This document shows, piece by piece, positions 4,931 to 15,402 of a stretch of 41,189 nt of DNA. Source of the stretch: a virus. The notes below the pieces were generated by a model. It was not told the origin of the DNA, searched no databases, and saw only the letters and a program-made list of their open reading frames with translations. Both the position numbers and the translations under genes were made by a program. Each line of letters opens with the position of its first letter. Position 1 is the first letter of the stretch. Location of the stretch: the IMG/VR virus record IMGVR_UViG_3300010392_000709, positions 1 through 41,189 of that record. The stretch is one strand, 5' to 3'.

Positions 4931-5092
4931 TCAATCATACTCCTGCTTCATGTATTCATCTTCGATACTTTCTAGCTCTAGCAATTGCTCCTTTGTGTAG
5001 AATGCATCATCTTCTTTAAGAACAATTTCAAGCCCTTCCTCTTCAAGAGCCTTGACAATAGCTCGACCCAGCTTATCAAATGTGGTAACCAT
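4931..5092 (-). CDS. Hypothetical acidic protein, 53 aa
   Basis: The start at ATG 5092 forms a TGATG overlap with the stop of the membrane-protein gene upstream and has an AGGAG site six bases away. A longer frame reaching 5248 exists but its first half is the shadow of that membrane gene. An ATG at 5125 (MDIDLDN...) is a weaker alternative. The protein is acidic and helical; function unknown. Confidence 0.65.
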   Translation of the reverse strand: MVTTFDKLGRAIVKALEEEGLEIVLKEDDAFYTKEQLLELESIEDEYMKQEYD

Positions 5093-5253
5093 CAGTAACT
5101 CCTCATTATCAAGATCAATATCCATGCTGCAACACAATAAATGACGATAGGAGCCCAATGGAAAGCCATACCGGCTCCCCACATAAATCCTGTTGCCATG
5201 CAGGCTATTCCATACAGCAGAATAGTCCAAAAATATGTATCTTTCCAAAACAT
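5092..5253 (-). CDS. 53-aa membrane protein
   Basis: This frame encodes a hydrophobic protein with two predicted membrane segments, one covering about residues 8-28 and the other residues 35-50 (IVIYCVAAWILILIM), with a short basic end. The ATG is preceded by AAAGGA at good spacing, and the stop overlaps the next start as TGATG. It is hidden by a longer, out-of-phase frame that joins it to the gene downstream. The role is unknown; a holin-like or exclusion function would be speculative. Confidence 0.65.
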   Translation of the reverse strand: MFWKDTYFWTILLYGIACMATGFMWGAGMAFHWAPIVIYCVAAWILILIMRSY

Positions 5254-5274
5254 TTTTTATCCTTTGTTTATGAG

Positions 5275-5358
5275 TGCCCCCGGCGGGACTCGAACCCGCA
5301 TATCGTAAATGATCGTTGATTTTAAGTCAACTGTGTATGCCAATTCCACCACGGAGGC
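5275..5358 (-). tRNA. tRNA-Leu(TAA)
   Basis: The minus strand folds as a tRNA: acceptor GCCTCCG pairs with CGGGGGC (one G-T pair), anticodon stem GTTGA/TCAAC closes a loop CTTAAAA with anticodon TAA, and the T arm GCGGG-TTCGAGT-CCCGC is perfect. The enlarged variable arm is typical of tRNA-Leu. CCA is not encoded. It reads UUA, a codon that is rare in GC-rich actinobacteria and regulated in Streptomyces through bldA. Confidence 0.93.
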
Positions 5359-6779: not shown

Positions 6780-6865
6780 TGGTGGGCTAGATGGGAATCG
6801 AACCCATATGAGTCTCCCCGTCAGATTTTGAATCTGATGCGTATGCCTAATTCCGCCACTAACCC
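6780..6865 (-). tRNA. tRNA-Leu(CAA), CCA encoded
   Basis: On the minus strand, acceptor GGGTTAG pairs with CTAGCCC (one T-G pair), the anticodon stem TCAGA/TCTGA closes loop TTCAAAA with anticodon CAA, and the T arm ATGGG-TTCGATT-CCCAT is perfect. A moderate variable arm fits tRNA-Leu. The discriminator A is followed by an encoded CCA. It reads UUG, complementing the UUA reader at 5275-5358. Confidence 0.93.
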
Positions 6866-10715: not shown

Positions 10716-10810
10716 TACGACACCACCCAAGCTACAATAGCGGACATAAGAATATCAATTTCTGGGATACTGGCAACATAGATCATTGCCAGTTTAAGCC
10801 TATTCATCAT
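10715..10810 (-). CDS. 31-aa hydrophobic peptide
   Basis: The frame (MMNRLKLAMIYVASIPEIDI...) is mostly hydrophobic, with an Arg/Lys N-terminus and two acidic residues in the middle, so it may lie on or partly in the membrane. AAAGGAG precedes the ATG pair, and it is linked by ATGA to the gene upstream and TAATG to the one downstream. These overlaps are the main evidence that it is real. Confidence 0.5.
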   Translation of the reverse strand: MMNRLKLAMIYVASIPEIDILMSAIVAWVVS

Positions 10811-11205
10811 ACTCCTTTCGTATGAAAATTGCGAACCTCTTGAATGAGGCTAGCGGAAGCATCACGAGTAAACTGAAGATATCTGCCATCATCTCCGCCC
10901 TCAATTGCCTCAATTTCCTTAGCAATGACATTGAACGAAAGTCCCATATCATTTAGGAAAGCAAGATACTCAAGACGACTCATATTGTCCCCGGCAAAAA
11001 ACTTATCAATGCCCTTTCCAAATGAATCACCAAACTCAAAGATGTCAACAGAGTCAAGCTTTCTTCCGGACAACTTACATCCAGCAAGCTCACAAAGAAC
11101 ACCCAAGCAACAGTAAGTATTACTGTCACTATCATAAAGAGCCCTAGTACCTTGCCAATACTTTTTAGACCGTAAAGCCCCGGTCCATTCGCTAATCGCT
11201 ACCAT
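10807..11205 (-). CDS. Conserved phage protein of unknown function, 132 aa
   Basis: The sequence WTGALRSKKYWQGTRALY followed by YCCLGVLCELAG matches, from memory, a protein that recurs in actinobacteriophages and has no assigned function. The two adjacent Cys and a third four residues later are conserved in what I recall. ATG 11205 is chosen since family members begin close to the WxxALRS motif. Confidence 0.75.
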   Translation of the reverse strand: MVAISEWTGALRSKKYWQGTRALYDSDSNTYCCLGVLCELAGCKLSGRKLDSVDIFEFGDSFGKGIDKFFAGDNMSRLEYLAFLNDMGLSFNVIAKEIEAIEGGDDGRYLQFTRDASASLIQEVRNFHTKGV

Positions 11206-11470
11206 CTTCAGCAAGCCTTTCATGCTCGTCAATATTTTTATCTACCTTACGAAATTCCGTTCCCGAGGGATTCGCAAACCATTCACCAATAGGTCCAACA
11301 TCTCCATGTTCATCGGAGTATTGAAAGACCCTTGTAAACCAATTACTTACATCGAGCCCCGTATCCCTCTCAAAGATTCTTCGTGCTTTAGCCGCTGCAT
11401 CTTTGGGACTATTTGCATTTGTAACCTCAAAAGGGATACGAAACTCAACCACATAATACTTTTCGTCCAT
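11192..11470 (-). CDS. Hypothetical protein, 92 aa
   Basis: The protein opens with beta strands (KYYVVEFRIPFEV) and a helix rich in Ala and Lys (SPKDAAAKARRIFERD), an alpha/beta arrangement. The stretch before ATG 11470 reads TAGGAGGATGA, a very strong ribosome site that also covers the stop of the tiny membrane gene. Function unknown. Confidence 0.65.
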   Translation of the reverse strand: MDEKYYVVEFRIPFEVTNANSPKDAAAKARRIFERDTGLDVSNWFTRVFQYSDEHGDVGPIGEWFANPSGTEFRKVDKNIDEHERLAEDGSD

Positions 11471-11478
11471 TCATCCTC

Positions 11479-11592
11479 CTAGAGCGATAGAAAAATTGCC
11501 AGCGGGATAAGAATCCAACCCGCAATAACCAAACCAACCAAAACCGCCAACACAGTCAGCAGTCCACCTAAAATTGTACGAATAAAAAACAT
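11479..11592 (-). CDS. 37-aa single-helix membrane protein
   Basis: The frame begins MFFIRTILGGLLTVLAVL and continues as one long hydrophobic segment of about 28 residues with a single Arg near the N-terminus. A perfect AGGAG lies five bases before the ATG. It starts seven bases after the stop of the ATPase/zincin gene, so the two are probably co-translated. Its function is unknown; as a partner that anchors or senses for the upstream protein it would be notable. Confidence 0.65.
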   Translation of the reverse strand: MFFIRTILGGLLTVLAVLVGLVIAGWILIPLAIFLSL

Positions 11593-11599
11593 CTTACTC

Positions 11600-12961
11600 C
11601 TAACGATAGTTTTCAATGATAAGACGACCAATCAGATCATCAGCAATGTGACGAAACTCTTCTTCATCATCATGCAAACCCGACTGGATATGATCATTCT
11701 CATGGATAAGAGTACCCACAAGAGCATTAAGTTTTCCAGGAGCACACAATTCGTAATTGATGAAAATACGACGATCACGAACGGCACCCCAAAGCTGTTC
11801 CTGACTTTCATCAATAGGATCAAAGAAAGAAACAACACGCTTATCAACTGTAACACCAGCACGTTCAATCATTGTTAAAGCTTCATCCAAACGTGCCTCA
11901 TCAGTTTCAGTCATCTTTCGAGTGTCAAACGTATCCTCACCCGAAAGAACATCATGAATTGTATCAACCCCGGCACGCTCTAAAGCACACTGAACCACAT
12001 AAGGAACCTGAACAGCGTGATAACCTTTAATCTTAAGCCGAGTAGCAACAAACTTTGGAACAGGATCAGAAACAGGAATTGCCTTATCACCCTCAAGATC
12101 ACTCCAAACACTAAGCCAAAGCTCTTTATGCTCTGGATACATTGAGTAACCCGAAACCTGCATCTTCTCATAGCACCTCTGATCAGCACTCAGATACTTC
12201 TCAACCAATTCAGGAGTATCGAATGCCGAAATGATATCTCCAACCTTAGCTCCAAGGACATGAGCATCACGAACTCTACGCTCCTCATTGAGAGTAATAC
12301 TATTGAATTGATAATCCCAAATCATAGGCCCAAAATCTTCCTCACAGAATTCGTGAACACGAACACCCTTATGAAAGATCAAGCCATCTGGAGAATTGCT
12401 TCTATCGAAAATCGAAGCAATACTCGTTGAGAAAACCTTTTCACGGTTGATACTGAAATACTCATCAAAATTCTCGAGCACATTCATTACTTCTGGAGGA
12501 GGATTCCAAGTTTCCTCATCACGAATGAAAACGGAAAAGATACCATCTTCATCAAGAGGTTCATCAACCAATTCCCACCACCAACGAGAACCATTCTCAA
12601 CAAACTCATCAATTGCATTTGCCAAAGCTTCACGAACAATCTGGAAGCTATCCTCCCAGGAAAGAACACCGGCTTCAGCAGTGTAAGAGGAAGGCTTACG
12701 AGTACCGTTATTGTAAACGAAGAAAACCTCCGAAATATCATCGGACTCTTCAATCTCGTAATTCATCCGATAAGCACCATCGGCATCATTTCCTGCATTC
12801 AGCCACGACCAATTCCTGCGGAGAGCAGCAATAGGAGCGAATTTTGAACCAGAACCGAATTGACCAATCGTATCCTCATTATCCCTCTTGGTTGAAATCC
12901 CCAACTTTTCGAGGAACAACCTATTTACGTCACCACTCTCATTAGCGATTCGAACGTACAT
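11600..12961 (-). CDS. GHKL-type ATPase fused to HExxH zincin domain
   Basis: The N-terminal third shows Bergerat-fold ATPase features: GQFGSGSKF at residues 33-41, close to the G2 box of Hsp90 (GQFGVGFYS), and REALANAID at 110-118, an N box with Glu111 and Asn115. The boxes occur in reverse order to Hsp90 or MutL, suggesting a permuted variant. The C-terminus has HENDH at 420-424 with acidic residues and a His about twenty residues later, as in gluzincin-type metalloproteases. Similar ATP-binding proteins are recalled from other phages, but I do not know a named function. The gene follows a repeat-rich intergenic region and precedes a tiny membrane protein. Confidence 0.7.
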   Translation of the reverse strand: MYVRIANESGDVNRLFLEKLGISTKRDNEDTIGQFGSGSKFAPIAALRRNWSWLNAGNDADGAYRMNYEIEESDDISEVFFVYNNGTRKPSSYTAEAGVLSWEDSFQIVREALANAIDEFVENGSRWWWELVDEPLDEDGIFSVFIRDEETWNPPPEVMNVLENFDEYFSINREKVFSTSIASIFDRSNSPDGLIFHKGVRVHEFCEEDFGPMIWDYQFNSITLNEERRVRDAHVLGAKVGDIISAFDTPELVEKYLSADQRCYEKMQVSGYSMYPEHKELWLSVWSDLEGDKAIPVSDPVPKFVATRLKIKGYHAVQVPYVVQCALERAGVDTIHDVLSGEDTFDTRKMTETDEARLDEALTMIERAGVTVDKRVVSFFDPIDESQEQLWGAVRDRRIFINYELCAPGKLNALVGTLIHENDHIQSGLHDDEEEFRHIADDLIGRLIIENYR

Positions 12962-13159
12962 TTTATTTTATTCCTTATGTCGGCGTCAATATTGACATTG
13001 GGCATTGACTACACTCTATCGGCTCAGGGCGGGAAAACAACGTACAGAACTGTTTATTGCTATGTTGGATCAGGAGTTGACGAAACGTTGACCGCACGTT
13101 GGCGGCAAATTGCGCCCTGCAAATTTGGAAGCAATCTGTGGCAAATTTGAATATTTCTA
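12962..13159. promoter_or_regulatory. Repeat-rich intergenic regulatory region
   Basis: This is the largest gap in the left half of the window. It holds a perfect 12-base palindrome GTCAATATTGAC at 12985-12996, right before the ribosome site of the ATPase/zincin gene; four GTTGR units at 13064, 13076, 13087 and 13098, spaced 11-12 bases; and GCAAATT units at 13105, 13119 and 13141. No gene is visible. Operator sites or a small replication-origin-like array are the likely readings; I cannot name the binding protein. Confidence 0.5.
13064..13108. repeat. Four tandem GTTG repeats with helical period
   Basis: Units starting GTTGG, GTTGAC, GTTGAC and GTTGGC begin at 13064, 13076, 13087 and 13098. 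The 11-12 base spacing places them on one face of the DNA, as expected for a cooperatively bound protein. Confidence 0.55.
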
Positions 13160-14510: not shown

Positions 14511-14657
14511 CTATCTTGGTTCCAAGTTAACAACATTTGGATTTTCAATTGTTGCCACAGGACCTTCCTCAACTGGCATTACCCTTTGTGCGGGTATAAA
14601 TGCACAACTTGCAATGAGAAAAGCTGAAACCAAAATCGCAATTGCGACCTTAACCAC
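14511..14657 (-). CDS. 48-aa lipoprotein
   Basis: The frame opens MVKVAIAILVSAFLIASC, a short Lys-containing N-terminus, a hydrophobic core and an Ile-Ala-Ser-Cys lipobox with the Cys at residue 18. About 30 residues remain outside the membrane. It starts with GTG inside the last codons of the Rpf-domain gene and stops just before the terminator at 14470-14493, so the two lipoprotein genes form one unit. A weak ribosome site is the main doubt. Candidate roles are superinfection exclusion or a partner of the upstream lipoprotein; neither is shown. Confidence 0.6.
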   Translation of the reverse strand: MVKVAIAILVSAFLIASCAFIPAQRVMPVEEGPVATIENPNVVNLEPR

Positions 14658-15249
14658 AATTAGGCCAAGGACTTGTACCACGCTGAGCAATCAGCGCATT
14701 AGCCATTGCGTCCTGAGTAGCAGGAGAAGCATTGGCAGGATTGCCAGTACCCCCTACAGAATTCCACGTTTGCTGATCAAACTGATAAGCTCCGTAGTAT
14801 CCATTTCCAGTATTAGTGGCATAATTGCCACCTGATTCGCAAGCTCTAATGGAAGCTAGATTACCTCCACCCCCGCTAGAATACACCGGGGCAGAGCTAC
14901 CGCCACTACTATAAGTAGTAACTTGCTGTGCAGCAGCCGCCTCAGCAGCCGCAGCCGCAGCAGCGGCTCTTTCAGCTTCAATACGCTTCATTTCGTTATC
15001 ATAAACGATAAGCGCATATTCAATTACCTTAGCATCATGATAAGCTCCTGCAAATTCAATTGCAATTTCCTCTTGTCGCTCATCATAATACTTTTCATAT
15101 TGCTCCGAGATCATTTCTGCGACCTCAGCCTGACTAGCAGTAGGAATTTCCTCTACTTCGCCAACTTCGTCAGCATTAGCAATACCACATCCGGCAGCCA
15201 ATACCAAAAACGTAAAAAATCCTGCGATAAATCGTAGAATTTGAATCAC
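14650..15249 (-). CDS. Lipoprotein with C-terminal Rpf (transglycosylase-like) domain
   Basis: A signal sequence at 1-20 ends in a Leu-Ala-Ala-Gly-Cys lipobox with Cys21, so the protein is probably anchored to the outer face of the membrane. An acidic helical part follows (30-95), then an Ala-rich stretch and a Gly/Ser linker. Residues 131-199 match resuscitation-promoting-factor domains: ACESGGNY with catalytic Glu138, GAYQFDQQTW, and Cys137/Cys198 likely forming the usual disulfide. Rpf domains cleave peptidoglycan glycan strands in actinobacteria. Start is GTG 15249, very close to AAAAGGA. Cleavage at the ANA-D site by signal peptidase I is the alternative to lipid anchoring. Confidence 0.85.
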   Translation of the reverse strand: MIQILRFIAGFFTFLVLAAGCGIANADEVGEVEEIPTASQAEVAEMISEQYEKYYDERQEEIAIEFAGAYHDAKVIEYALIVYDNEMKRIEAERAAAAAAAAEAAAAQQVTTYSSGGSSAPVYSSGGGGNLASIRACESGGNYATNTGNGYYGAYQFDQQTWNSVGGTGNPANASPATQDAMANALIAQRGTSPWPNCG

Positions 15250-15330
15250 TCCTTTTAGTTTACTTACTTAATAATATGTCCGGTCAAATAAATTTGGCTG
15301 GGCACTTATCACCCTTTCTTTGTGTCTAAG

Positions 15331-15402
15331 CTGGAAGGACAGGTTTCGAACCTGTGATAAGAGATTCAGAGTCTCTCGTGTTGCCACCTACACTACCTTC
15401 CA
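15331..15402 (-). tRNA. tRNA-Gln(CTG)
   Basis: The minus strand gives acceptor TGGAAGG/CCTTCCA, D stem GTGT/ACAC, anticodon stem AGAGA/TCTCT closing CTCTGAA with anticodon CTG, and T arm ACAGG-TTCGAAA-CCTGT. The U1-A72 end pair is typical of tRNA-Gln. CCA is not encoded. Confidence 0.92.

Follow-up and report, generated by a model that had tools for sequence, protein, structure and literature searches.

In ATPases with the Bergerat (GHKL) fold, the canonical order of the motifs is N box, G1, G2, and in Hsp90 the arginine of the LNxSR loop touches the γ-phosphate of ATP. Zincin domains of the HExxHxxxGx(H)D type are present in Wss1/WLM proteins, SprT-like proteins and the minigluzincins selecase and jannalysin. 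A survey of jumbo phages (PMC7824862) placed orthologues of phage T4 rIIA, which combine a GHKL domain with a variable C-terminal domain, among the counter-defence systems.

The DNA analyzed in this study (referred to as the window) is the whole stretch of 41,189 nt. Its terminase is 39% identical to the terminases of Streptomyces phages; the window is therefore probably part of an actinophage genome. A gene of the window (gene A) encodes a protein that resembles each of the above systems in part, and is followed by two small genes (B and C). The identified features are as follows.

12962–13159, minus strand: intergenic region upstream of gene A, with a sigma-70-like promoter match at 12960–12989 (promoter and repeat scans)
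11600–12961, minus strand: gene A, 453-aa predicted permuted GHKL ATPase with Hsp90-like transducer segment and SprT/WLM-like zincin (ORF, family alignment, AlphaFold2, hhalign, PDB/Pfam)
12935–12949, minus strand: G1-like segment IANES, residues 5–9, family consensus IxNxG, with N instead of the usual D
12839–12865, minus strand: G2 box GQFGSGSKF, residues 33–41 (hhalign to Hsp90 GQFGVGF and rIIA GGFGLGSK)
12608–12634, minus strand: N box REALANAID, residues 110–118, C-terminal to G2 (hhalign to the N boxes of Hsp90, MutL and TopoVI-B)
12278–12292, minus strand: LNEER, residues 224–228, candidate Hsp90-like LNxSR catalytic-arginine loop (hhalign to HtpG LNVSRE)
11690–11704, minus strand: HENDH, residues 420–424, predicted zinc-binding/catalytic motif (motif conservation in the clade)
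11669–11671, minus strand: D431, candidate third metal ligand (HExxHxxxGxxD), invariant in 64/64 proteins
11597–11601, minus strand: AGGAG ribosome-binding site of gene B, overlapping the gene A stop codon
11479–11592, minus strand: gene B, predicted 37-aa hydrophobic membrane microprotein, 7 nt after gene A
11192–11470, minus strand: gene C, predicted 92-aa soluble α/β protein (family scan, AlphaFold2)

The closest described relatives belong to PHROG family phrog_8203 (function unknown), which includes gp26 of Pseudomonas phage AH02 and which gene A matches over its whole length (E=7e-23). The G2–N-box order and the ExxH..D motif are common to both, but AH02 gp26 and the wider family carry EExxH, have no gene C wherever this was tested, and are located in several cases in recombination/replication regions. 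T4 rIIA and other phage GHKL proteins resemble gene A in their G2 and N boxes and in the variable domain that comes after the GHKL domain; they differ from it in motif order, in the absence of a zincin C-terminus and in their partners. Hsp90 (HtpG) shares the GQFGxG G2 box, the RE(L/A)xxNAxD N box and the following LNxxR segment, whereas gene A is permuted, has Asn in place of the G1 Asp, contains an added zincin and has no recognised Hsp90 dimerisation domain. Finally, the zincin domain of gene A is of the type found in Wss1, but it is placed behind a GHKL domain, D431 is invariant while the position of the third His of Wss1 (430) is not conserved, and the sister branch of the family has EExxH. 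Scans of viral contigs for T4 rIIA and HtpG returned near-copies only or none. The open-access literature searched contained no account of a permuted GHKL domain or a GHKL–zincin fusion. The component folds are known; as far as tested, it is their arrangement and the gene cassette that are new.

Gene A family and the permuted Bergerat domain

The initial annotation, made from the sequence alone, had correctly placed the 453-aa reading frame, its G2 and N boxes and HENDH; it had overlooked the IxNxG strand (residues 5–9), the LNExR motif (225–228) and the third conserved gene (11192–11470, minus strand). A pattern scan of viral contigs with the single gene A sequence found no relatives. An alignment of four sequences (gene A and relatives) revealed 93 relatives in viral contigs, and 80 loci were retained; only three annotated phage records contain such a gene. 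In a 64-protein alignment, residues I32, G33, G36, G38, G98, W102, R110, E111, N115, D118, E226, R228, E421 and D431 are invariant, and H424 is present in 63 of the 64 sequences. The conservation of the G2 box, N box and ExxH..D motif indicates that they are strongly constrained, and a chance origin of these motifs was thus ruled out. The homologues called for at the outset exist, in 80 viral loci, and the three motifs are invariant or nearly so in the 64 aligned proteins. The structure prediction proposed at the same time gave a confident full-length AlphaFold2 model, calculated on the family alignment (pLDDT 92.9, pTM 0.82). The window protein alone matched no family in Pfam and no defence system in PADLOC.

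In this model, strand 2–8 is followed by a lid-like loop, a helix (38–48) located after GQFGSG, four strands and the N-box helix (105–123). Blocks of the family profile were aligned separately by hhalign with Hsp90, MutL, TopoVI-B and rIIA, and reversed blocks served as controls. Residues 96–152 matched the N boxes of Hsp90 (P=4e-4), MutL (3e-4), TopoVI-B (8e-4) and rIIA (5e-3), while residues 1–99 matched the G2 regions of Hsp90 (P=1.6e-3) and rIIA (6e-3), with no match to those of MutL or TopoVI-B. Each single match is modest (hhalign probabilities of 6–40%); for the three blocks tested in reverse, P was at least 0.08. The motifs of gene A therefore occur in the order G1-like, G2, N box. Since the N-box and G2 blocks match separately, the order is truly swapped, and the conclusion that the first domain (approximately 150 residues) is a circularly permuted Bergerat fold, as originally proposed, is well supported. 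A GHKL domain in canonical order was ruled out by the model and the block alignments.

Two of the three GHKL motifs are well preserved. The N box (R110-E111-x3-N115-x2-D118) is invariant and located on helix 105–123, and the G2 box has the GxxGxG pattern before a helix, with G33, G36 and G38 present in 64/64 proteins. The G1 motif DxGxG with its adenine-binding Asp is not present as such: position 7 is occupied by Asn in 59 and by Ser in 5 of the 64 sequences, although the strand context fits. The N-terminal IxNxG is most likely the G1 equivalent. The strand RDEETW, located after the N box, was rejected for this role: position 148 is Asp in only 2/15 HExxH members, and Asp does not figure among the residues commonly found there in the EExxH group, while the N-terminal IxNxG is conserved instead. 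The Asn at the position of the G1 Asp means that ATP hydrolysis by gene A is not a given, and ATP binding itself may be weak or absent.

Other, independent searches gave weak matches to ATPases of this type. They were to a viral “histidine kinase-like ATPase” model (E=3.6e-4), to a sacsin ATP-binding model (E=0.003 with AH02 gp26) and to the Pfam sacsin model, and Foldseek with the gene A model produced weak topoisomerase II and TopoVI-B matches. A Foldseek search of the PDB with the gene A model gave nothing at E≤1e-3, which is expected for a permuted fold, though it is not proof of one. With the PHROG profiles, only the G2 segment (residues 19–40) matched rIIA (phrog_612, E=0.0022). Membership of the T4 rIIA family, defined by a full-length match with a canonical N-terminal GHKL domain, was rejected on the basis of this restricted match and the swapped order.

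The permuted domain is followed by a segment, extending to approximately residue 235, that contains the invariant E226-x-R228 (64/64). In the hhalign comparison it falls on the HtpG middle domain, where LNEER is aligned to LNVSRE (P about 0.01). A correspondence of E226/R228 to the Hsp90 LNxSR loop is suggestive only. Gene A was not assigned to the Hsp90 family: the resemblance is confined to the LNxxR loop (P=0.01) and there is no Pfam HSP90 match.

Zincin domain and the HExxH and EExxH branches

Comparison of the family profile with the PDB revealed similarity of the C-terminal domain to Wss1 (E=8e-4) and to MJ1213/selecase (0.003). Among the 64 members, Pfam identified SprT-like domains in nine (best E 0.0013) and WLM domains in three, and Foldseek with the gene A model found selecase (probability 0.96) and jannalysin (0.90–0.91). 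Each of these profile and structure matches is modest singly. They concur on the zincin domain that had been read from HENDH, and a zincin of the SprT/WLM/minigluzincin type is well supported.

The HExxH motif itself does not extend to the whole family: it is invariant in the clade of the window (35/35), but the larger part of the family, outside this clade, has EExxH (49/49). The switch is a single, fully supported change on the tree. Members with HExxH have R437 and D441 (15/15 each), whereas those with EExxH have Q437 (48/49) and a hydrophobic residue, never an acidic one, at position 441 (49/49). In these alignments the predicted active site switches as a block (motif, 437 and 441) between the branches. 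D431, invariant in both, is the leading candidate for a third metal ligand. E421 and D431 are common to both branches. Since EExxH is kept so strictly, the fold can be selected without a classical HExxH; the EExxH majority of the family may be non-proteolytic.

Genes B and C and the surrounding region

Genes A, B and C are separated by gaps of 7 and 8 nt and have good ribosome-binding sites. The hydrophobic frame and the ribosome site described at the end of gene A were confirmed, the AGGAG sequence overlapping the stop codon. A scan with gene C yielded 48 contigs, in 46 of which gene A lies no more than about 3.5 kb away, in nearly every case immediately upstream; all 46 copies are of the HExxH form. 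A small ORF with a transmembrane segment (TM ORF) is located between A and C in 34/46 loci and next to C in most others. It is placed after C in several other loci (L122, L125, L126, L129, L130), and just before C in L018, L019, L094 and L105, where gene A is elsewhere or was not found. As a control, a comparable ORF followed 9 of 200 gene ends. The tiny membrane gene is thus conserved, but it does not always follow gene A. One locus with A and C (L010) has no recognised gene B; its contig ends shortly after. The sequences of gene B diverge strongly between loci.

Gene C was detected in 8 of 10 HExxH records tested, the two misses being contigs shorter than 20 kb; 25 EExxH records all lacked it. 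In the collection searched, no isolated phage carried the HExxH cassette, whereas AH02, which is an isolated phage, has an EExxH relative. The recurrence of B and C with HExxH, and the absence of C from the EExxH records, indicate that both genes belong with the HExxH form. The cassette counts include near-identical contigs and reflect one evolutionary origin; they therefore show linkage, not repeated independent gains. Residues W44, R47, F49, Y51, G59, E63, F65 and P68 of gene C are invariant, and its AlphaFold2 model is α/β and moderately confident. Database searches with gene C gave no family match, and comparison with the PDB no fold match.

A different arrangement was observed in locus L085 (3376–6417), where the order of A and C is reversed (C first); this 20-kb contig was binned into an archaeal MAG (NZBO01000077.1) and is possibly viral or an archaeal provirus.

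The repeat array reported upstream of gene A was not found: Tandem Repeats Finder and a repeat search detect none in 12962–13159. This region contains three copies of AATTTGC (13105–13147) with 14–22 nt spacing, an arrangement equalled by about 1.3% of approximate dinucleotide shuffles, and the 198 nt upstream of gene A contain four GTCAA words (equalled by 6.7% of shuffles). The AATTTGC copies upstream of the operon are a possible operator, weakly above chance.

HNH endonucleases and an Rpf-like transglycosylase are among the genes around the HExxH form. In the window the latter (PF06737) is encoded at 14650–15249 (minus strand), and loci L006, L007, L009, L011 and L020 have it close to gene A as well. 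Gene C is followed by a 141-aa ORF (10807–11232, minus strand) that matches phrog_18067 (function unknown) over 36 residues (E=3e-13) and overlaps the end of gene C if a TTG start is used. The window contains tRNA genes for Leu(taa) (5274–5358), Leu(caa) (6780–6865) and Gln(ctg) (15330–15402, minus strand), and in L013 a sequence that is tRNA-like by appearance is located right after the gene A stop codon (about 5035–5110).

Possible functions of the cassette

Judging from its domains and partners, we give an even chance to the reading that the product of gene A is a phage protease switched by ATP and linked to the membrane, which acts, with two accessory proteins, as a takeover or counter-defence device. 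The permuted Bergerat domain, with its N-box helix moved behind the G1–G2 part, would bind the nucleotide, and the invariant arginine of the Hsp90-like segment could sense the γ-phosphate. Beyond a helical linker, the zincin would coordinate its metal through HExxH and probably D431. By analogy with Hsp90, MORC and MutL, nucleotide binding would shut a clamp formed by a dimer, and the protease would thereby be positioned or released. Gene B probably serves to anchor the complex at the membrane or to recruit it there, while gene C may be an adaptor, an inhibitor or a target recogniser. Since rIIA orthologues were grouped with counter-defence systems (PMC7824862), such a role, or one in host takeover, is plausible, and the cassette is probably a device of this kind in actinobacteriophages. 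A more specific version, which we hold to be somewhat short of an even chance, is a protease system in which a permuted Hsp90-like ATP clamp gates the SprT/WLM-type zincin, the microprotein serves as a membrane tether and gene C as inhibitor or adaptor, the sister EExxH scaffold being used inside DNA recombination/replication modules.

It is unlikely that gene A is instead an rIIA-like counter-defence factor with a replaceable C-terminal domain, acting at the membrane against host exclusion, whose zincin only binds or recognises a target and whose membrane link is gene B. The matches of the G2 box to PHROG rIIA (phrog_612) and, by hhalign, to T4 rIIA, the published placement of rIIA orthologues and the conserved microprotein agree with such a role. 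However, rIIA has the canonical N–G1–G2 order, no rIIB-like partner was identified, and the strictness of HExxH and D431 in the clade goes beyond the needs of mere binding.

The similarity to Wss1, the closest solved zincin, and the SprT-like and WLM matches in Pfam would also suit a DNA-side protease that strips trapped proteins off phage DNA in the manner of SprT/Wss1, with the GHKL clamp around the DNA and with B and C as modulators. The EExxH relatives have RecE-like exonucleases, RecT, DnaB-like helicases and a primase-helicase among their neighbours, and AH02 gp26 adjoins DNA-binding and Gam-like genes. These neighbours, however, belong to the branch that lacks the first His of the motif; it is with a membrane protein that the HExxH branch is linked, and no DNA-binding motif was identified in gene A, so that we regard this role as quite unlikely.

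The strictness of EExxH, equal to that of HExxH, and the invariance of E421 and D431 in both branches could indicate a non-proteolytic chaperone or regulator, in which the zincin fold is a structural metal-binding module and the function resides in the ATPase/transducer part. We give this proposal a small probability, since HExxH is complete in its clade and co-varies with R437 and D441, and thus looks like a maintained active site. Very improbable, finally, is a module resembling toxin–antitoxin or superinfection-exclusion systems in which B, as a toxin active on membranes or an exclusion peptide, is the effector and is regulated by A and C: B is tiny, very hydrophobic and adjoins C almost everywhere, including loci from which A has moved away (L018, L019, L105), but L010 has A and C without a recognised B, and B sequences diverge strongly.

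A circularly permuted Bergerat fold shows this ancient ATP switch to be open to re-wiring. Joined to a protease, the switch would provide a new means, independent of AAA+ motors, of coupling proteolysis to ATP binding. The clean split between HExxH and EExxH, together with the co-switching residues and partner genes, constitutes a natural experiment on the role of the zincin, and provides testable hypotheses for phrog_8203, a widespread phage family.
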